Below are positions 4,374 through 15,996 of a stretch of 36,505 nucleotides of DNA, piece by piece. The first letter of the stretch is position 1; each line of letters starts with the position of its first letter. The notes under the pieces were generated by a model. It saw only the letters and a list, made by a program, of their open reading frames with translations. It searched no databases and was not told the origin of the DNA. Origin of the DNA: an uncultured Acidimicrobiales bacterium. Its GTDB lineage: Bacteria > Actinomycetota > Acidimicrobiia > Acidimicrobiales > SZUA-35. The DNA lies in assembly GCA_937981915.1 (NCBI GenBank), contig CALJMD010000474.1, positions 1-36,505 on the forward strand, given 5' to 3'. Made by a program: the position numbers and the translations under genes.

Positions 4374-4937
4374 ATGGCCACCATCAGCACTAATGATTTC
4401 AAGAACGGAATGACGATCGAGCTGTCGGACGGCCTGTTCCAAATTCAGGACTTCCAGCATGTGAAACCAGGGAAGGGAGGGGCGTTTGTTCGTTCCACCC
4501 TTCGCAACGTTCGCACCGGTTCGGTGGTCGACCGGACCTTCCGTGCCGGCGAGAAGATGGAGAACGCATTCATCGAGAAGCGCGATAAGCAGTACCTGTA
4601 CCGCGACGGCGAGGACTATGCGGTCATGGATTCCGAGACGTTCGAGCAAAACTCCGTCAGCGTTTCCGCCATGGGCGAGGCGGCCAACTACGTGACCGAA
4701 GGCCAAAGCGTCGTGTTTCTGATGTACGGCGATGAGATCATCGGGACGGATCTTCCTGCCTCCGTTGAGCTTGATGTGTCCGACACCGAGCCCGGCCTCC
4801 AAGGCGACCGAGTATCAGGCGCCCGAAAGCCGGCGACTTTGGAGACCGGTTTAGTCGTCCAGGTACCCCTTTTTGTGAATGTGGGTGACCGAATCAAGGT
4901 CGACACTCGCACCGGCGAATACCAGACCCGAGCGTGA
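4374..4937 (+). CDS. efp: Translation elongation factor P
   Basis: MATISTNDFKNGMTIELSDGLFQIQDFQHVKPGKGGAFVRSTLRNVRTG; C-terminal VGDRIKVDTRTGEYQTRA. Confidence 0.97.
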   Translation: MATISTNDFKNGMTIELSDGLFQIQDFQHVKPGKGGAFVRSTLRNVRTGSVVDRTFRAGEKMENAFIEKRDKQYLYRDGEDYAVMDSETFEQNSVSVSAMGEAANYVTEGQSVVFLMYGDEIIGTDLPASVELDVSDTEPGLQGDRVSGARKPATLETGLVVQVPLFVNVGDRIKVDTRTGEYQTRA

Positions 4938-5362
4938 GTAGCGGCGGATCCGGCCTGCAGCGAAGTCGGCGGGAGTCTCGAGAGCGCGTGGTCGAACTTG
5001 GCTACGAAGCCGAGCTGCGAAGCTGGACTGTAGATGAGTTACTGGAGTCGCTGCCCCTGGCCGCCGACCCGTTTGTTGTTGATCTCTTGCGTGATCTCGA
5101 AACACACCAAGTCGAGGTCGATGCCCGGATTGCAAAGATGGCAAGAGGTTGGACGCTGGAGCGAATGCCCGTTCTCGACCGTCTGATCATGCGGTTGGCT
5201 ACTGTCGAGCTGCTTCACCAGGACACGCCGACCGGTGTGGTGCTGGCCGAAGCAGTTGAATTGGCCAGCCGCTACTCGACCGATGAGTCGGGCCGGTTCG
5301 TTAACGGTGTACTGGCAGCTGTGGCCCGCGAGGTGCGCCCGGAGGCTGACTCCACCACCTGA
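4934..5362 (+). CDS. nusB: Transcription antitermination factor NusB
   Basis: ARGWTLERMPVLDRLIMRLATVELL and VVLAEAVELASRYSTDESGRFVNGVLAAVAR; overlaps efp stop by 4 nt; GTG start. Confidence 0.93.
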   Translation: MSSGGSGLQRSRRESRERVVELGYEAELRSWTVDELLESLPLAADPFVVDLLRDLETHQVEVDARIAKMARGWTLERMPVLDRLIMRLATVELLHQDTPTGVVLAEAVELASRYSTDESGRFVNGVLAAVAREVRPEADSTT

Positions 5363-5463: not shown

Positions 5464-6684
5464 GTGCCCCGTCGTTTCGCCATCGCTCTGCCGACTGTCG
5501 CTCTGGTAGTCGCGTTGTTGGCGGTTATGGTTTCGAGCCAGCCCGATCCGCTCCCGTACTCACCTCCGGGCGGGCCCGCCGCTCGCCCATGGATAGATAC
5601 TCAGGATCGGGGTGCGGTGGAGGACGCCTTCGCCAGCTGGTACCACAGCGGGGAGTCTGAGGTTGCTTGGACTGGCAGCTATGAGGGCTGCGCCTCCGGA
5701 GACAGCTCGGATCTGCTTCGAGAAGCAACCATTGACCGAGTCAACTTTTTTCGGGCCATGGCCGGAGTGCCCGCCACCGTTCAACACGACACTGACTACT
5801 CAGAACTGGCGCAAGCCGGTGCACTGATGATGAGCGCCGAAGGCAAACTCAGCCACTACCCGGATCACACCTACGAATGCTTCACCACTGACGGAGAAAT
5901 GGCCGCGGCTAACAGCAACCTGTATCTCGGCCGAACCGGTCCATGGGCCGTGGATGGTTACATCGAGGATCCCGGTGACAAGAACGTGGACGTCGGCCAC
6001 CGAATAACGATTCTGCACCCCCCGACTACCCGCATGGGAGTAGGACATGTCGCCGGGGATGAGAGTCGGTATCCGGCCAATGTTCTCTGGGTGTTCGATG
6101 AGAACGTCTTTGACAAGACCACGGCGGTTCGAGAGCACAGCGGTTTCGTTGCCTGGCCACCGAGAGGATACGTCCCCGGCGAGTTGGTCTATCCGCGCTG
6201 GTCGTTCTCGCTGAGCGAAGCCGATCTCAGTGACGCCGAGTTGACGATGACGGCCAACGGCGAGCCGGTCGCGTATTCCATTGTCGCCCGTCTCTCGAAG
6301 GAGGGCGAAGTTCCCTCTTCCGTCTTGGTGTGGGAGCCATCTCAGACCGTTATGCAAGCAACCGAAGACGTTACCTACGCCATCTCGGTCGCCGGTGTCG
6401 GAGTTCGCCAGCCGGCCGAGTCGGACCTGCGGACACTGGCAATGGTGTCGGATCGAGAGCCCGCAGATCGTCTCGACCGTTTCCATCAAGGTACGGCCAC
6501 GGAGGCGGCTGGTGATCAACCCGGCGCCTACGAAAAGGTCACGTTCTCCTATGAGGTAACGGTGTTGGCTCCGGCTGATGGAGGCTTGCGATCAACGGTA
6601 ATGGCCGCGCTTGAACCGGCCTCAGACCGCGCCCGTGCAGTAGTCGACTCAAGCCGGCGACGGCTCCAGTCGTTCGGCTTGTGA
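5464..6684 (+). CDS. Secreted CAP (SCP/PR-1-like) domain protein
   Basis: N-terminal signal/TM segment MPRRFAIALPTVALVVALLAVMVSS; RVNFFRAMAGVPATV...AQAGALMMSAEGKLSHYP CAP-type helix/His pattern. Confidence 0.72.
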   Translation: MPRRFAIALPTVALVVALLAVMVSSQPDPLPYSPPGGPAARPWIDTQDRGAVEDAFASWYHSGESEVAWTGSYEGCASGDSSDLLREATIDRVNFFRAMAGVPATVQHDTDYSELAQAGALMMSAEGKLSHYPDHTYECFTTDGEMAAANSNLYLGRTGPWAVDGYIEDPGDKNVDVGHRITILHPPTTRMGVGHVAGDESRYPANVLWVFDENVFDKTTAVREHSGFVAWPPRGYVPGELVYPRWSFSLSEADLSDAELTMTANGEPVAYSIVARLSKEGEVPSSVLVWEPSQTVMQATEDVTYAISVAGVGVRQPAESDLRTLAMVSDREPADRLDRFHQGTATEAAGDQPGAYEKVTFSYEVTVLAPADGGLRSTVMAALEPASDRARAVVDSSRRRLQSFGL

Positions 6685-6763
6685 CGTCCACGCACCGTCC
6701 GACTTTCTGAACGGTCGCGGCGCGCGGCGCCGGAGGACTCGCTACCCTCTCTGAGTGGCAGAT

Positions 6764-6794
6764 CCGTGAAGTGGGTTCCGTGAGACCCGTACGG
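6764..6794 (+). promoter_or_regulatory. Putative PyrR-binding loop in pyrR 5' leader
   Basis: CCGT(6764-6767)/ACGG(6791-6794) lower stem, GAA bulge, GTGGGTT/GACCCGT upper stem with some G-U pairs, hexaloop CCGTGA fitting CNGNGA; abuts SD GGAAGGAG at 6793-6800. Confidence 0.65.
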
Positions 6795-6806
6795 AAGGAG
6801 TTCACT

Positions 6807-7373
6807 ATGGCTGAACGCGAACGACGACGCACGCCCCCGTATGGGGGCGTTTTTGTTGCCCGGTCGGAAATTCTCGACAGCGCAGCGGTTCGCCGGGCAA
6901 TCCGACGCATGGCCCATGAAATCGTCGAAGCGAACGAAGGCTTGTTAGACACAGTGCTCGTCGGCTTGCAGACCGGGGGAGTGCCGTTCGCCGAAGCGAT
7001 CGCCGAGTCCTTGATGGAAATCGAAGGTGTTGAAGTTCCGGTCGGCAAACTCGATGTCGCGTTCTATCGGGACGACATCAACCTGCGGCCCGTGTTGCCG
7101 GAAGCGGTGACCGAGATGAACATCGACATCGCACGCAAGACCGTTGTGCTGGTTGATGACGTGCTCTTCACCGGTCGGACCGTCAGAGCGGCCCTGGATG
7201 CCATCGTCGACCAGGGCAGACCGCGAACTGTTCAATTGGCGGTGATGGTTGATCGTGGCCATCGTGAACTGCCGATCCGACCGGACTATGTGGGCAAGAA
7301 TGTGCCCACGAAACGCACCGAAGCGGTGAACGCCACTGTGCTCGGGGTCGACCTCGGGGAAATCCAGCGATGA
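6807..7373 (+). CDS. pyrR: PyrR bifunctional pyr operon regulator / uracil phosphoribosyltransferase
   Basis: VRRAIRRMAHEIVEAN...VLVGLQTGGVPFAEAIAE...VVLVDDVLFTGRTVRAALDAI...VMVDRGHRELPIRPDYVGKNVPT; ATG 6807 with SD GGAAGGAG. Confidence 0.96.
   Translation: MAERERRRTPPYGGVFVARSEILDSAAVRRAIRRMAHEIVEANEGLLDTVLVGLQTGGVPFAEAIAESLMEIEGVEVPVGKLDVAFYRDDINLRPVLPEAVTEMNIDIARKTVVLVDDVLFTGRTVRAALDAIVDQGRPRTVQLAVMVDRGHRELPIRPDYVGKNVPTKRTEAVNATVLGVDLGEIQR
6831..6857 (+). terminator. Intrinsic-terminator-like hairpin inside pyrR codons 9-17
   Basis: ACGCCCCC-GTAT-GGGGGCGT, 8 bp perfect GC-rich stem followed by TTTTTGTT. Confidence 0.6.
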
Positions 7374-8416
7374 GGCAGCTGATCTCGACCGCCGATCTTT
7401 CCCGGGCGGACATCGATGACCTGATGGTTCTGGCTGACTCGTTCGCCGAGGTCCAGACTCGCGATGTCCCTAAAGTGCCTGCGCTACGTGGCAGGACTGT
7501 CGTACTGGCGTTCTTCGAGGATTCGACTCGCACCAGAACATCGTTTGACCTGGCCGCCCGCCGCTTGTCGGCGGACGTGTTGAACTTTTCGGTGGCGTCA
7601 TCGGCAACCAAGAAGGGGGAGTCGCTGCGGGACACGGTGGAGACGATCAACGCCATGGGCATCGATGCCATCGTGGTGCGCCACCGAAGTTCAGGCACAC
7701 CGATTCAAATCAGCCGCTGGACTGACGCCGCGGTGATTAACGCCGGTGACGGCTGGCACCAGCACCCGACCCAAGCCCTGCTCGACGCGTACACATTGCG
7801 TCAGCGGCTGGGAGACATCGACGGTGCGAAGATCGCCATTTGCGGGGACATCAACCACTCACGGGTGGCTCGGTCGAATGTAGATCTGTTCACCAAAATG
7901 GGAGCCGAGGTGACGTTGGTCGGGCCGCAAACCCTGATGCCGCCCGACATTTCCGGTTGGCCGGTGACGATTAGCCACGACCTCGACAGTCTGCTCAGTG
8001 AGATCGACGTCATGTACATGCTTCGGATTCAGACTGAACGACTTTCGGCCGGACTGTTCCCGACCGTCCGGGAATACCGGAGCCGCTGGGGTCTAACCGT
8101 GCAGCGAGCAGGTGAACTCCGTTCGGATGCCGTCATCATGCACCCCGGGCCGATGAACAGGGGAGTTGAGATTGACCCCGAAGTGGCGAGCGAACCTCGC
8201 TGCGTTGTGTTGGACCAAGTCGCATCCGGGATTCCAGTTCGGATGGCGGTGCTATATCAGGTCTTAGGGCCGGGGCGCTTCGCCAACGAAGAAGCCGCCG
8301 TAGACCGACCGGACGTTGAAGAGTCCAACCACAGCGTGTCACCGACGGATGGGTCCGTTGAGGCGGAACCCGACACCAAACAAGCAATGGCGATGAAGGA
8401 GGCTTCATGTCAGTAG
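7370..8416 (+). CDS. pyrB: Aspartate carbamoyltransferase catalytic subunit
   Basis: FFEDSTRTRTSFDLAARRL, VVRHRSSGTP, NAGDGWHQHPTQALLDAYTL, HPGPMNRGVEI; ATGA overlap with pyrR. Confidence 0.97.
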   Translation: MRQLISTADLSRADIDDLMVLADSFAEVQTRDVPKVPALRGRTVVLAFFEDSTRTRTSFDLAARRLSADVLNFSVASSATKKGESLRDTVETINAMGIDAIVVRHRSSGTPIQISRWTDAAVINAGDGWHQHPTQALLDAYTLRQRLGDIDGAKIAICGDINHSRVARSNVDLFTKMGAEVTLVGPQTLMPPDISGWPVTISHDLDSLLSEIDVMYMLRIQTERLSAGLFPTVREYRSRWGLTVQRAGELRSDAVIMHPGPMNRGVEIDPEVASEPRCVVLDQVASGIPVRMAVLYQVLGPGRFANEEAAVDRPDVEESNHSVSPTDGSVEAEPDTKQAMAMKEASCQ

Positions 8417-9714
8417 TAGTCATCAGCGGTGGTCAGATCCATGAAGCGGGGGGCCAGCGTTCGGCGACACTGATCATCAACACCGAAACCGGCACGGTCG
8501 ACGACATCGTTGCCGACGGTGCAGCGGTTCAAGGCGATCAGACGCTTGACGCCTCCGGGTGTGTCGTTCTGCCAGGATTCGTTGATCTGCACTCACATCT
8601 TCGTCAACCGGGCAACGAGGCGGCGGAGACCATCGAGACCGGTTCTCGGGCCGCTGCATTGGGCGGTTACACCGCCGTAGTGGCGATGCCGAACACGACG
8701 CCATGCATGGACTCGGCCGCCGTCATCGGCGAAGTAGTCAACGCCGGTCGTACCGCTCTGTGTGAAATCAAGCCGTCGGCGGCCATCACAATGGGACGTG
8801 ACGGCGAAACACTAGCGCCAATGGCGGAGCTGGTTGACCTCGGTGTGCGAATGTTCACCGATGACGGCACCGGAGTGCAAGACGACCAGCTGATGCGCCG
8901 TGCACTCGAATACGCCTCCAGCCTGGCCACCGACGACGGCACTCAGATCATCTTGTCGCAGCATTGCGAGGTGGATGCGTTGTCGCACCCCGGCGTCATG
9001 CACGAGGGAGCTTGGTCGGCGAAACTCGGACTGGCCGGGCAACCGGCTGAGGCCGAAGAACTCATGGTGATGCGAGACATTGCGCTGGCTCGCTTGACCG
9101 GAATGAACGTCCATCTTCAACACCTATCAACGGCGGGCAGCGTCGAAATGGTCCGGGCCGCAAAAGCGGCCGGTGTGCCGGTTACCGCTGAGGCGACGCC
9201 TCATCATTTCTGTCTGACCGATGCGGCCTGCGCTTCCTACGATCCGGTATTCAAAGTTCACCCGCCACTTCGTACCGACGCCGACGTCGCAGCGATACGG
9301 GTCGGCTTGGCTGATGGCACGATCGACGCGGTGGCTACCGACCACGCTCCTCACACGCCGGACTCGAAGGAGCAACCCTTCGATCAGGCGCCGCCCGGCA
9401 TGCTGGGTCTGGAGACTGCGTTCGCGCTTGCGCTGACCGAGCTTGATCTGCCGCTGGATCGTCTGGTTGAAATGTTCTCCAGTGCACCGGCTCGTCTCGC
9501 CGGGCTTGGGGCACGTCACGGTGGCCCAATCGAAGTCGGCCGACCGGCCAATCTGACCGTTGTCGATCTCGAGCAGACCTGGACAATCGCCGGTGACCGG
9601 TTGGCCAGTCTGGCTTCCAACACGCCATTTGAAGGACGAACCGTGCGTGGCAAGGTTCGTCATACTCTGTTCAACGGCGAACCCGTCGTTGTCGACGCCA
9701 AGGCGGTGCGGTAA
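8407..9714 (+). CDS. pyrC: Dihydroorotase
   Basis: GFVDLHSHLRQPGNEAAETIETGSRAAALGGYTAVVAMPNTTP; VATDHAPHTPDSKEQPFDQAPPGMLGLETA. Confidence 0.97.
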   Translation: MSVVVISGGQIHEAGGQRSATLIINTETGTVDDIVADGAAVQGDQTLDASGCVVLPGFVDLHSHLRQPGNEAAETIETGSRAAALGGYTAVVAMPNTTPCMDSAAVIGEVVNAGRTALCEIKPSAAITMGRDGETLAPMAELVDLGVRMFTDDGTGVQDDQLMRRALEYASSLATDDGTQIILSQHCEVDALSHPGVMHEGAWSAKLGLAGQPAEAEELMVMRDIALARLTGMNVHLQHLSTAGSVEMVRAAKAAGVPVTAEATPHHFCLTDAACASYDPVFKVHPPLRTDADVAAIRVGLADGTIDAVATDHAPHTPDSKEQPFDQAPPGMLGLETAFALALTELDLPLDRLVEMFSSAPARLAGLGARHGGPIEVGRPANLTVVDLEQTWTIAGDRLASLASNTPFEGRTVRGKVRHTLFNGEPVVVDAKAVR

Positions 9715-10931
9715 TGGTCGACGCTCACAACCAACCAGACGATCAAAACTCGACGGCTAGCCAGGTCACTGGGCCGATTGCCGCCGCCCTGGTCATGGCC
9801 GACGGGTCGACCTTCGAAGGTGAGCACTTCGGTGCCTTTCCAACGGGAGGTGTGGCATCCGGAGAAGTGGTGTTCAACACCGCGTTGACCGGCTACCAGG
9901 AGGTCATCACCGATCCGTCTTACGCCGGCCAGATCATCAACTTCACCTACCCTCACATTGGCAACTACGGCACTACCCCTGATGACAACGAATCCCGGTC
10001 GGTCTTTGCTCGCGGCGTGATCGTCCGAGACTTGGCCCGTCGGCACTCCAACTGGCGTTCCGAAGGGTCGTTGAACCAGTTTCTTTCCGATCACAACCTC
10101 TCCGGCATCGGCGGCGTCGACACTCGTCGTCTCACCAAGTTGATCCGATCAAACGGGGCAATGCCAGGGGCTTTCGGTCCTGTAGAGGGACCAGGTGCAG
10201 TGGACCTGGACGTGTTACGTCGAGCCGCTGTCGATGAGCCGGGCACCGACGGAATCGACCTGGTTGCCCAGGTGACCACACCTGAAAGCTACGAGCGCGC
10301 CCACCAGCCTGCGGGCGAAACGACATCCGGTCCGTTCAACATCGTCGCCCTTGACCTAGGTATCAAAACAACCATCGTTGACCAGTTGGCAGGTTTGGGA
10401 ACAGTGCAGGTCATGCCGGCCTCCACCCCGGCGGCCGACATCTTGGCCGCTCAGCCTGACGGTGTATTCCTTTCCAACGGACCCGGTGACCCCCGCGAAG
10501 TTGGCTACGTAGTGGAGACGGTCACCCAGATTCTCGGCCACGTTCCCGTGTTCGGAATTTGCCTGGGCCACCAAATTCTCGGCCTGGCTATCGGCGGAAA
10601 CATCACCAAGCTTCCCTTTGGCCACCACGGAGCGAACCATCCGGTAATGGATACGACAACCGACGTCGTCGAGATAACAAGCCAGAACCACAACTTCGCG
10701 GTCGAAGCCGAGTCAGTGAGCCACGCGGCCGTCGTCACCCACGTGAACTTGAACGACGGTGTTTGTGAGGGGCTGCAACTTCGTGACGGTTCAGCGTTCA
10801 GTGTGCAGCATCACCCGGAGGCGAGCCCGGGACCACATGACTCCAGATACCTCTTTGAACGGTTCGCCGATTTGATGACCAACGGTTCGTTACCAGCGAC
10901 CGAAGAAAATGGAGGGGCTACCGATGCCTAA
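9714..10931 (+). CDS. carA: Carbamoyl-phosphate synthase small (glutaminase) subunit
   Basis: [37 protein letters not shown]; class I GATase [31 protein letters not shown]. Confidence 0.97.
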
Positions 10932-13900
10932 GCGAACCGACCTCAACTCCATTTTGGTGATCGGCTCCGGGCCGATCGTGATCGGCCAGGCCTGTGAGTT
11001 CGACTACTCGGGAACACAGGCTTGTCGTGTCCTCAAAGAGGAGGGCTATCGGGTAATTCTGGCCAACTCGAATCCGGCCACGATCATGACCGACCCGACG
11101 TTCGCCGACGCCACCTACGTCGAGCCGCTAACCCGCGAAGTACTGGCCAAGATCATCGAAACCGAGCGGCCAGACGCCGTGCTACCCACGTTGGGTGGCC
11201 AGACGGCGCTCAACTTAGCGATGGAGCTTGAAGCCGACGGTGTGTTGGAACGGTTTGATGCTGAGCTGATCGGAGCCAACGCCGAGGCCATCTCTACCGC
11301 GGAGGATCGTCAGAAGTTCAAAGAGGCCATGATCGAAATTGGCCTCGAGGTGCCGCGAAGCGGAATCGCTCATACCCCGGCCGAGGCAGAGGACATGATC
11401 GGCCAAATCGGCTTGCCGGTTGTTATCCGCCCGGCCTACATCCTGGGAGGGCGCGGCACGGGTATCGCCACCACACCCGAAGAGTTCACCAAGATGGCGG
11501 CCGACGGCCTTGCCGCCAGCCCGATCTCCGAGATCCTCATCGAAGAGTCGATCGCCGGTTGGAAAGAGTTTGAGCTGGAGGTCATGCGAGACCGCAACGA
11601 CAACCAGGTCATCGTTTGCTCCATCGAGAATCTCGACCCGATGGGCGTCCACACCGGTGACTCCATCACGGTCGCCCCGATCCAAACACTCTCCGATGTG
11701 GAATACCAGGTGCTGCGCAACGCCGCTTTCGCCTGCCTGCGCCGAGTCGGTGTTGAAACCGGCGGCTCAAACGTTCAGTTTGCCATCGAGCCCGACACCG
11801 GGCGGATGGTGATCATCGAGATGAACCCCCGAGTCAGTCGGTCATCGGCCCTAGCGTCGAAAGCCACTGGTTTCCCAATTGCCAAGATTGCGGCCAAGTT
11901 GGCCGTCGGTTACACCCTCGATGAAATCCCAAACGACATCACCAAGAAGACGCCGTCGTCCTTCGAACCGGTAATCGATTACGTCGTCACGAAGATTCCT
12001 CGCTGGGCCTTCGAGAAGTTCCCTGGATCAACCGGGCTGCTCGGCACGTCCATGCAGTCGGTCGGTGAAGTGATGGCCATTGGTCGTACCTTCCCGGAGT
12101 CGTTGCAGAAGGCCTGCCGGTCGCTTGAGTCCGGTCACGCCGGACTGAATGGATCCGAAGCCGAGCAAACCTTCGACGCTCAGTCGATTGAGGAGCTCTG
12201 CGAGCTGGTTCAACGAGCCACACCGGAACGGATCTTCCAGGTTGAATCGCTGTTGCGTCGTGGCGTCTCGATCGAGCGTCTCTACGAGTTGACGGCAATC
12301 GACCCTTGGTTTCTTGACCAGATGTCGGTGGTCTCCGAGGAACGTTTGGCGCTCGCAGGCCGCAACGCTGACACGCTGACACGAGCCGAGTGGCGGCGGG
12401 CCAAGCAGCTCGGGTTCAGTGACGTTCAGCTCGGCTACCTGTGCGGGAGCGACGAGCATCAGGTCCGAAGCCTGAGGCTGTCGCACGACGTTCGGCCCAC
12501 CTTCAAAACCGTGGACACCTGCGCGGCGGAGTTCGAAGCAAACACGCCCTATCACTACTCGACGTACGAGGACGAGAGTGAGGTCGTATCCAGCGATCGG
12601 CAGAAAATCATGATTCTGGGTTCGGGGCCGAACCGGATCGGGCAAGGTATCGAGTTCGACTACTGCTGTGTTCACGCCAGCTTCTCACTCAGCGAGGCCG
12701 GTTTCGAAACCATCATGGTGAACTGCAACCCCGAAACGGTTTCAACCGACTATGACACCTCCGATCGGCTCTACTTTGAGCCGATCACCTACGAAGACGT
12801 CATGAACATCGTCGACGTGGAGAAGCCGCTCGGCGTCATCGTGTCCCTCGGTGGACAAACACCGTTGAAGCTGGCCAATCAGTTGCCTCCCGAGTTGGTA
12901 CTGGGAACTGCGGCTACGTCGATCGACGAAGCTGAGGACCGCGATCGCTGGTCGGAGCTGTGTAATCGCATTGGGATACCACAACCCAAGGGCGGGACAG
13001 CTGAATCGGCGGAGCAGGCAGGGCAGATCGCCGATGACATTGGCTACCCGGTACTTGTCCGACCCAGTTACGTGCTGGGAGGACGGGCCATGGAATTGGT
13101 CTACAACCGTGAAGACCTGGACCGTGCGATGGCCGCTATGGCCAGCCAGGGGAGCCTGGGACGAGAAGGTGGTCTATCGGCTGAACGCCCGGTACTGATC
13201 GACTCGTTCCTCGAGAATGCCATCGAAGTCGACGTTGACGCAGCGAGGGATCACACCGGAGAGGTGTTGATCGGCGGTGTGATGGAACACGTCGAGGAGG
13301 CCGGGGTGCACTCGGGAGATTCGGCGTGCGTTCTACCGCCCAGAACTCTCGGTCCTGACATCGTTTCGATACTGAGCGACTACGTCGGCCGAATAGCCGA
13401 AGCCCTCGACGTCGTTGGCCTGGTGAATGTTCAATTCGCCGTCAAAGACGGGGGGTGTTACGTGATCGAGGCCAACCCCCGGGCGTCGCGGACCGTGCCA
13501 TTCGTGGCCAAGGCAACCGGCCGACCAATGGCCAAGATCGCTTCCCGTGTCATGGCCGGAGCGACGCTCGCAGAACTTCGGGTTGAAGGTCTCGTAACGG
13601 ACACTGTCGACACCGGCTTTTGGGCGGTCAAAGAAGCCGTATTGCCGTTCGTGCGGTTCCCCGACACCGACGCCTTGCTCGGGCCGGAGATGCGGTCCAC
13701 CGGCGAAGTCATGGGTATCGACCGCGATGTGGGCGTTGCCTTTGTCAAGAGCCAGCTGGCGGCGGGAACAATCTTGCCCGCCCCCGATGGGGCCACGGTC
13801 TTCATGTCGTTGGCCAACCGCGACAAAGAAGCCGGCTTAACTGTCGCTCGACTCTTGGTCGAGTTGGGCTTCTCGCTGGTGGCGACTGCGGGTACGGCCG

Positions 13901-14208
13901 ACTACTTGCGAGACGCCGGCTTGGTAGTCGAAGAAACGGTGAGTCGCCTCAACCAAGAGGGCCTAAACGCCGTGGACCTTATCGAGGACGGCAAGATAGC
14001 AATGGTGATCAACACGCCTCGCGGTCGAGGCCCTCGCGCTGATGGCGCGTACATCCGTCAGGCAGCAGCCCGCAACGGTGTCCCGCTAGTGACGACGACG
14101 GCTGCCGCCTTGGCTGCCGCCCGCGGAATGGTGGATCTGCGCAATGGTGAACTGCAGGTAACCCCGCTCCAAGCCATCCACGGCTCGGCCAGCAGCGCAA
14201 CGGCTTGA
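10924..14208 (+). CDS. carB: Carbamoyl-phosphate synthase large subunit
   Basis: [42 protein letters not shown] and internally duplicated ATP-grasp halves; ATG 10924 with SD GGAGGGG. Confidence 0.98.
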
Positions 14209-14240: not shown

Positions 14241-15158
14241 ATGGTTGACCTGACCGCCACGGTGGGTTCGGTCGACCTGGCTAATCCGATCATGACAGCG
14301 GCTGGGACCGCCGGTCACGGTTCCGAACTCGGGGCCTACGTCGACCTGGCCAAGCTCGGAGCGGTCGTGGTGAAATCGCTGGCCCACTTCGAGTGGGATG
14401 GCAATCCACCGCGACGCGTGAACCAAACGCCGTCAGGAATGATCAACTCGGTTGGACTGCAAGGCCCCGGGATAGCCCGCTGGATCGTGGAAGACCTACC
14501 GGCGTTGGAACGCTTAGGTGCCCGCGTTGTGGCCTCGATCTGGGGTCGAACGGTTGACGACTACCGCCGGGCCGCTCAGCTGTTGGCACCGGTCGCTGAT
14601 CGACTGTGTGCCGTTGAAGTGAATATCTCGTGCCCGAACACCGAGTCGGGAAACGATCTGTTCGCCCACTCGCCGGCGATGACCACCGAAGTCATCGAGG
14701 CCACAGCCGATTGTGATGCACCGCGGTGGGCCAAGTTGAGTCCCAACGTGGGTTTCCGACTGCCGGAGATCGCCACAGCCGCCGGTGAGGCTGGCGCCGA
14801 TGCCGTGACGTTGGTGAACACCTACTTCGGACTTGTGCTCGATCCGGTCACCGGAGAACCTGTTTTGGGTGGGGGAGGAGGCGGTGTCTCCGGCCCGGCG
14901 ATACGGCCCCTCGCTGTACGAGCCGTGGCTGATGTTCGCCAGGCTTGCCCCAACTTGCCCATTATCGGTGTTGGCGGAATCCGAACAGCGTCCGACGTTG
15001 TTCAGTTCGCCCGTGCCGGCGCCGACGCCGTGCAGGTTGGAACAGCCACGTTGGCTGATCCCGGCCTGGTCGGCCGTCTCGTGGGCTCGCTTGAGGCCTG
15101 GTGTCAGGACCATCGGGTGGGCAGCTTCAAAGACCTCGTCGGGGCCCGTCGGCATTGA
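14241..15158 (+). CDS. pyrD: Dihydroorotate dehydrogenase, class 1 (PyrD1B-like)
   Basis: NPIMTAAGTAGHGSELG, VEVNISCPNTESG (Cys type), TLVNTYFG, GGGGGGVSGPAIRPLAVRAV, IIGVGGIRTASDVVQFARAGADAVQVGTA. Confidence 0.93.
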   Translation: MVDLTATVGSVDLANPIMTAAGTAGHGSELGAYVDLAKLGAVVVKSLAHFEWDGNPPRRVNQTPSGMINSVGLQGPGIARWIVEDLPALERLGARVVASIWGRTVDDYRRAAQLLAPVADRLCAVEVNISCPNTESGNDLFAHSPAMTTEVIEATADCDAPRWAKLSPNVGFRLPEIATAAGEAGADAVTLVNTYFGLVLDPVTGEPVLGGGGGGVSGPAIRPLAVRAVADVRQACPNLPIIGVGGIRTASDVVQFARAGADAVQVGTATLADPGLVGRLVGSLEAWCQDHRVGSFKDLVGARRH

Positions 15159-15279
15159 TTGACCTATAACCGGCATGGCGTGGGCCATCGGCTACGGTAA
15201 TGAACGGCGTGAGCTGGCGGTGGTCACCGGGCTTGGGCCACAAGTCATCTGGATCTTGAACCCGAAATGAAGGATTTTC

Positions 15280-15996
15280 ATGTCTGCTTCGACGGCAAAG
15301 ACGATTGACGGCTTACCGGCCGAGGTCAGGGCCAAGACGGCGCTCGCTCTCGATGTGGATGACCTGGTCGAAGCGTTGCGCCTGGCGAGGCAGCTGTCCC
15401 CATGGTTCGGAGTGGCCAAGGTCGGTCTCGAGCTCTACACGGCTGCCGGACCCGACGCTGTTGGTGCCCTGATGGACAATGGCTTTGATGTGTTTCTCGA
15501 CTTGAAGTTGCATGACATCCCCACCACGGTTGCACGGGCCGCCCGAGTCGGCGGCGCCCTTGGCGCCACCTACCTGACATTGCATGCTCATGGCGGAGCC
15601 GACATGCTCCGAGCCGGTGTTGACGGCCTTCTAGAGGGAGCATCAAACGCCGACCTGCCGGTACCAATGGCTGTGGCCATCACGGTGTTGACTAGTGACG
15701 CCGACGCTCCGGCTCACATCATGCCTAATAGGCTGCGTCTTGCTGTCGAAGCTGGCTGCGGGGGAATCGTATGCTCCGGCGCCACCTTGCGTGAAGCCCG
15801 CGAGCTTTCACCCAGAACCGTTCGCGTGGTCCCGGGGATCCGTCACGCTGGCGGGGAACAACACGATCAGCCCCACCCGATAACGCCTGCCGCCGCCTTT
15901 GAAGAAGGAGCCGATCTCCTAGTGATCGGTCGAGCGGTGACCCAAGCCGATGATCCGGCGGCCGCTGCGGCGTCGCTGTTCGCCGAGTTGGTCTAA
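15280..15996 (+). CDS. pyrF: Orotidine-5'-phosphate decarboxylase (DLKLHDIP type)
   Basis: VFLDLKLHDIPTTVARAA, LTLHAHGGADML, VVPGIRHAGGEQHDQ, DLLVIGRAVTQADDPA. Confidence 0.95.
   Translation: MSASTAKTIDGLPAEVRAKTALALDVDDLVEALRLARQLSPWFGVAKVGLELYTAAGPDAVGALMDNGFDVFLDLKLHDIPTTVARAARVGGALGATYLTLHAHGGADMLRAGVDGLLEGASNADLPVPMAVAITVLTSDADAPAHIMPNRLRLAVEAGCGGIVCSGATLREARELSPRTVRVVPGIRHAGGEQHDQPHPITPAAAFEEGADLLVIGRAVTQADDPAAAAASLFAELV

Follow-up and report, generated by a model that had tools for sequence, protein, structure and literature searches.

For Thermus ZO5, a 1997 study (Van de Casteele et al.) reportedly proposed a PyrR attenuation model in which the translating ribosome replaces the RNA antiterminator and holds the terminator open; the translated open reading frame (ORF) in that model is said to be a leader peptide upstream of pyrR, and we use it as a lead. 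Similarly, the pyrR coding sequence of Mycobacterium smegmatis reportedly contains no terminator, and comparison with it is likewise a lead. The M. smegmatis pyr operon is described, in the part of PMC13328217 that cites Fields and Switzer (2007), as being under PyrR-dependent translational repression. For Escherichia coli pyrL and Bacillus subtilis bmrB, read-through depends on translation of the terminator-containing ORF (PMC5021804, PMC4191407).

The window analyzed here is a 36,505-nt stretch of DNA from an uncultured Acidimicrobiales bacterium (assembly GCA_937981915.1, contig CALJMD010000474.1). Its pyr locus resembles that of M. smegmatis: both belong to actinobacteria, and in both the operon's first gene, pyrR, has a PyrR-type hairpin at its ribosome-binding site. 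It differs from the M. smegmatis arrangement, as the latter is reported, in that the controlled region is not free of terminators, owing to a putative one inside pyrR. Like the Bacillus pyr leaders (RF00515), it combines the loop core UCCNGNGAGG with a terminator downstream; unlike them, it has no apparent antiterminator, a single site, a terminator within coding sequence, and no Rfam match. As in pyrL and bmrB, the intrinsic terminator lies inside an ORF, to whose translation we propose read-through is tied. However, pyrL and bmrB are leader peptides on which the ribosome senses UTP or antibiotics, whereas the ORF in the window encodes the regulator, and gating would fall to an RNA-binding protein. 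The principle would be shared with the Thermus ZO5 model as it is reported, except that the translated ORF is pyrR itself; the leader-peptide loci of other Actinomycetota (see below) come closer to that model than the window does.

RESULTS

A PyrR-type hairpin overlaps the pyrR ribosome-binding site

The operon begins with pyrR (6807-7373, plus strand), which encodes a 188-residue protein matching the NCBIfam PyrR equivalog at 218.7 bits. It is followed, in the order pyrR-pyrB-pyrC-carA-carB, by four genes identified with NCBIfam (7370-14208, plus strand), with consecutive start-stop overlaps, which are expected to be under the same control. Two further plus-strand ORFs, probable pyrD (14241-15158) and probable pyrF (15280-15996), were named by reading the sequence rather than by family search, and this segment (14241-15996) is likely the end of the operon. 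Directly 5' of the operon lie the genes for EF-P and NusB (4374-5362; EF-P at 4374-4937 by NCBIfam), and a functional link is conceivable, since the terminator codons described below include Pro-Pro, an EF-P-sensitive motif. A 406-residue ORF between nusB and pyrR (5464-6684) has no match in NCBIfam.

The hairpin (6764-6794, plus strand) matches the first-pass annotation base for base: a lower stem of CCGU (6764-6767) with ACGG (6791-6794), the bulge GAA (6768-6770), the hexaloop CCGUGA, and loop-adjacent U-G and U-A pairs in place of C-G and U-G. Its 3' strand runs into the ribosome-binding site, as had been proposed; specifically, ACGG overlaps the Shine-Dalgarno sequence GGAAGGAG (6793-6800, plus strand), which begins with the hairpin's final two bases and ends six bases before the pyrR ATG at 6807. 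The predicted fold of a 41-nt segment is essentially the hairpin alone, at -13.7 kcal/mol (shuffles, -8.8 ± 2.5; z = -1.9; 9 of 200 as good), and the whole-leader single fold gives z = -1.0. Given the z-score of -1.9, the hairpin taken by itself stands out only slightly, and it is therefore comparison with relatives that decides.

Our comparison set consisted of 60 pyrR loci of relatives, from the window's own genus to the same order, picked by whole-protein similarity. A pattern search found the hairpin directly 5' of pyrR in 58 of them; of the two loci that it missed, L117 clearly has the hairpin and L025 carries an altered, partly duplicated version. Among the 51 distinct rows that carry both this hairpin and the in-gene terminator, the hairpin shows no variation at CGU-A, G, C, G, GAG, and ACG, and the upper-stem pairs alternate among GC, CG, AU, UA, and GU in step, i.e., in a compensatory manner. 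With both hairpins pooled, standard pairs make up 95.3% of pair cells, compared with 88.2% in shuffles and 32-47% when the partners are slid, and two-sided changes in these rows number 67 against 13 in shuffles. A comparison of pyrR leaders from related genomes, which the first-pass annotation had named as one way to check its reading, thus finds the hairpin both kept and covarying.

The sequence usual among relatives, GGUCCNGNGAGGCC, departs less from the Bacillus consensus than that of the window does; most relatives have the purine bulge, and the loop core across them is GUCCNGNGAGGC. The loop and its flanks correspond to the consensus UCCNGNGAGG set in a bulged stem, with the window's loop-adjacent U-G and U-A pairs compensated. 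A covariance model built from the relatives (R2) scores the window at 47.4 bits, the window itself being a member of the model's alignment, and weakly detects the PyrR site expected in Bacillus velezensis (17.7 bits, E = 0.015). The Rfam PyrR model, RF00515, gave no match in the window, its own genome, or five pyrR loci at E values up to 1. Because of this, and because RF00515 describes a longer Firmicutes-type leader (115 positions), we do not file the hairpin as a member of that family. Its position is that of a pyr-operon leader in a genome encoding PyrR, directly 5' of the five overlapping genes.

Altogether, the hairpin is conserved, and comparison points to a predicted PyrR-binding element that is probably real. 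Conservation, covariation, and gene context, together with an intact PyrR gene, support the initial reading of a PyrR-binding loop at the ribosome-binding site. The mechanism offered with it, translational repression alone, is incomplete, as it overlooks the conserved intrinsic terminator predicted within the pyrR coding sequence.

In a separate observation, L025, and L037 with the same sequence, show two CNGNGA-type loops in altered surroundings upstream of pyrR, an unusual and perhaps tandem arrangement.

A predicted terminator lies within the first codons of pyrR

The predicted intrinsic terminator occupies pyrR codons 9-17 (6831-6857, plus strand), so that it overlaps a translated ORF, and begins 37 nt 3' of the PyrR hairpin. 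Its sequence is ACGCCCCC-GTAT-GGGGGCGT-TTTTGTT, in which the stem (6831-6850; -16.6 kcal/mol) is followed by TTTTGTT, and it is the top terminator-like site of the window when both strands are considered. A terminator was found in pyrR codons 1-25 in 48 of the 60 relatives, compared with 7.7% of synonymous recodings, which preserve both the protein and its codon usage. The initial locus search had the peptide TPPYGGVF among its seeds, which could bias the choice of loci; therefore, the recoding test was rerun with the 60 loci picked by whole-protein similarity. Across the remainder of pyrR, terminators turn up at 0-3% per 75 nt, where the base rate for in-gene terminators is taken from pyrR itself and the window.

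Codon choice follows the same pattern. GTT is used at codons 15 and 17 in 89% and 74% of cases (background, 11%), TTT at codon 16 in 63% (12%), GGG at codon 13 in 89% (21%), and ACG at codon 9 in 96% (23%). Five of the eight terminator stem pairs show two-sided changes. In the divergent relatives L139 (GTGCCCTCATCAGAGGGCACTTTTGTT) and L136 (CGCCGCCCGCTCGGGGCGGCGTTTTTGTT), the stem and U tract are kept although the peptides differ; of the lower-GC loci, L114 (genome G031; AAGCCCCC/GGGGGCTT) keeps the terminator through an altered base pair, and L116 (genome G015) has a shorter stem. Under strict criteria, 12 of the 60 relatives lack the terminator, and some U tracts are interrupted by C. An origin by chance or by codon usage is ruled out by synonymous recoding, position in the gene, and codon bias.

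Intrinsic terminators are predicted to be few in Actinomycetota (PMC2965389), which counts against the putative terminator here; by the same token, selection would be keeping a terminator-like structure within a protein-coding gene in a phylum of predicted scarcity.

The terminator falls in an N-terminal extension of PyrR, spanning codons 1 to about 18 and absent from PyrR proteins of solved structure. In alignments with the PDB relatives, which include 1ufr ("pyr mRNA-binding attenuation protein") and Bacillus PyrR, the match starts no earlier than residue 19-20. Ahead of the core motif, the window's PyrR carries 28 residues; relatives without an in-gene terminator mostly have 8-21.

These observations bear on the first alternative, namely pure translational repression of the M. 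smegmatis type, in which the G+C-rich pyrR codons would fold without terminating transcription. Such a mode has precedents in arrangement, as a PyrR-type hairpin sits at the ribosome-binding site, unaccompanied by a terminator, in Tsukamurella, Nonomuraea, Microbacterium, and family f7; in the three named genera, none was found near the pyrR start. However, it leaves unexplained both the U tract upheld by rare codons (GTT, 89% versus 11%; TTT, 63% versus 12%) and the leader-peptide terminators found elsewhere, and we regard it as unlikely for the window.

The ribosome on pyrR is the remaining candidate antiterminator

A promoter -10-like TANNNT box, TACCCT (6743-6748, plus strand), lies upstream of the hairpin. 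Boxes of this form are common upstream of the relatives' hairpins: of 58 loci, 52 have one within 30 nt, against a mean of 8 in shuffles. The window's own TACCCT is a weak match, and no -35 element was identified for it. Given this placement of TANNNT boxes, the transcript probably starts just 5' of the hairpin, which makes the leader very short.

A second alternative is attenuation of the Bacillus type, in which the terminator has an RNA antiterminator as its competitor and PyrR stabilizes an anti-antiterminator. The order of elements, a PyrR loop and then a terminator, is the same as in Bacillus. However, when the terminator 3' arm is withheld, the consensus fold contains the PyrR hairpin only, and the pairing of the terminator 5' arm with upstream sequence is 0.55 compared with 0.58 in shuffles, with no conserved competitor. 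No antiterminator mutually exclusive with the terminator was found, and a Shine-Dalgarno sequence and a conserved reading frame occupy the space between hairpin and terminator. We therefore consider this alternative very improbable; since no RNA antiterminator is apparent, the ribosome on pyrR remains as the candidate.

Alternatively, the codon 9-17 element could be a translational pause or frameshift signal made of Pro-Pro, a hairpin, and a U run, with no terminator. Codons 10-11 are indeed Pro-Pro, an EF-P gene lies upstream (4374-4937), and proline runs are able to uncouple translation from transcription (PMC5021804). Yet L059, L074, and L139 keep the hairpin and U tract without Pro-Pro, and the zero frame runs on into PyrR, so we give this reading scant credence. 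It is equally implausible that the in-gene hairpin, although it is the window's strongest terminator-like site, merely ends the upstream gene with no part in pyr control, since from its position 3' of the promoter-like box and the pyrR start it would stop pyrR transcripts too, and its codon position relative to the PyrR hairpin is constant across the order.

Proposed mechanism: translation-coupled attenuation gated by PyrR

The best explanation of the locus, to which we assign a probability of roughly 0.72, appears to be transcription attenuation that is coupled to translation and gated by PyrR. It builds on features read from the sequences, i.e., both predicted hairpins with their conservation and covariation, codons that seem to serve the terminator, the promoter-like box, and the lack of a rival antiterminator. 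Since a conserved terminator lies in the pyrR coding sequence, a block of translation should become termination of operon transcription.

Under this mechanism, the transcript would start almost at the PyrR hairpin. When pyrimidines are plentiful, UMP-bound PyrR would occupy the hairpin and keep the ribosome off the overlapping Shine-Dalgarno sequence, and RNA polymerase would transcribe the first 17 codons of pyrR without a trailing ribosome. The GC-rich hairpin of codons 9-15 would then fold, transcription would end at the U tract, and pyrR together with the downstream pyr genes would be off. When pyrimidines are scarce, PyrR would be released, the ribosome would enter pyrR and mask the 5' arm, and the polymerase would continue, the translating ribosome itself being the antiterminator. 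The N-terminal extension of PyrR may be present largely to carry the terminator. In this scheme, we infer PyrR binding, its UMP dependence, actual termination, and the relief by translation. The distance from the Shine-Dalgarno sequence to the U tract, about 60 nt, counts against the attenuation model: with such spacing the ribosome must load fast, and polymerase pausing would help.

We are mildly inclined to see the locus as an Acidimicrobiia attenuator whose leader peptide is fused in frame to PyrR, such that PyrR gates ribosome entry into its own gene and thereby operon transcription, and part of PyrR is there to encode a terminator. The ribosome as antiterminator is probably not a new principle, because the Thermus model reportedly proposes the same. 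Two things appear to be new: the housing of the terminator in the gene of the regulator itself, for which covariation and codon choice give evidence, and the distribution of this layout among Acidimicrobiia; no description of a terminator so placed was found in the open-access literature searched. Translational repression and transcription attenuation, usually seen as alternative PyrR modes, would be united in one compact element. Such an element escapes standard annotation, as it has no Rfam match and its terminator is concealed in coding sequence.

Three arrangements of the hairpin in Actinomycetota

Within the class, a model of the hairpin plus terminator region (R1) matched in 100 of 198 genomes; within the phylum, the hairpin-only model R2 matched in 50 of 398 genomes under strict filters, with at least one match (L224) probably due to chance. 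Reading the sequences gave three types of arrangement. In type I, which comprises most of family f7 as well as Tsukamurella, Nonomuraea, and Microbacterium, the hairpin directly precedes a terminator-free pyrR whose N-terminus is short. Type II, which includes the window, has the hairpin before an N-terminally extended pyrR, often with the terminator inside. In type III, found in other orders and classes, a short leader ORF follows the hairpin; it often bears a terminator and either stops close to the pyrR start or overlaps it (MRMPTTATRGVAFLLP in L158, MPILATDAAREAAFL in L155, and VKGDLPAPAAGRFFNAR in L222). A strict terminator search of 57 loci outside the set of 60, with carA loci among them, found 22, compared with 0.9% of shuffles, and overlooked several longer-looped candidates visible by eye. 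With three arrangements in one phylum (hairpin alone, plus a leader-peptide terminator, or plus an in-gene terminator), these loci offer a natural series for attenuator evolution.

On a PyrR tree built from the core region only and rooted at the midpoint, type II forms two blocks, one in the window's order and one in the class's other orders, and the type I loci of f7 are nested within the first. This topology fits the loss, in f7, of the extension and the terminator together. Also compatible with it, though not proven by it, is the idea that type II arose when a leader peptide became fused to pyrR; since the tree is midpoint-rooted, the direction of change is one that we infer.

Some relatives (L181, L183, L185, L187, and L188) have a second PyrR-type hairpin, located before carA, and because of it the split pyr operons of these relatives are probably under PyrR control. 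In L185, a terminator-like leader ORF similar to type III also stands before carA. In eight loci (L022, L024, L027, L030, L043, L044, L048, and L128), the hairpin lies 24-55 nt upstream of pyrR and is followed by a very short ORF (MEYLGGSNG in L024), which ends in the TGA of a GGCTGA overlapping the pyrR start; there, PyrR would gate a coupled mini-leader.
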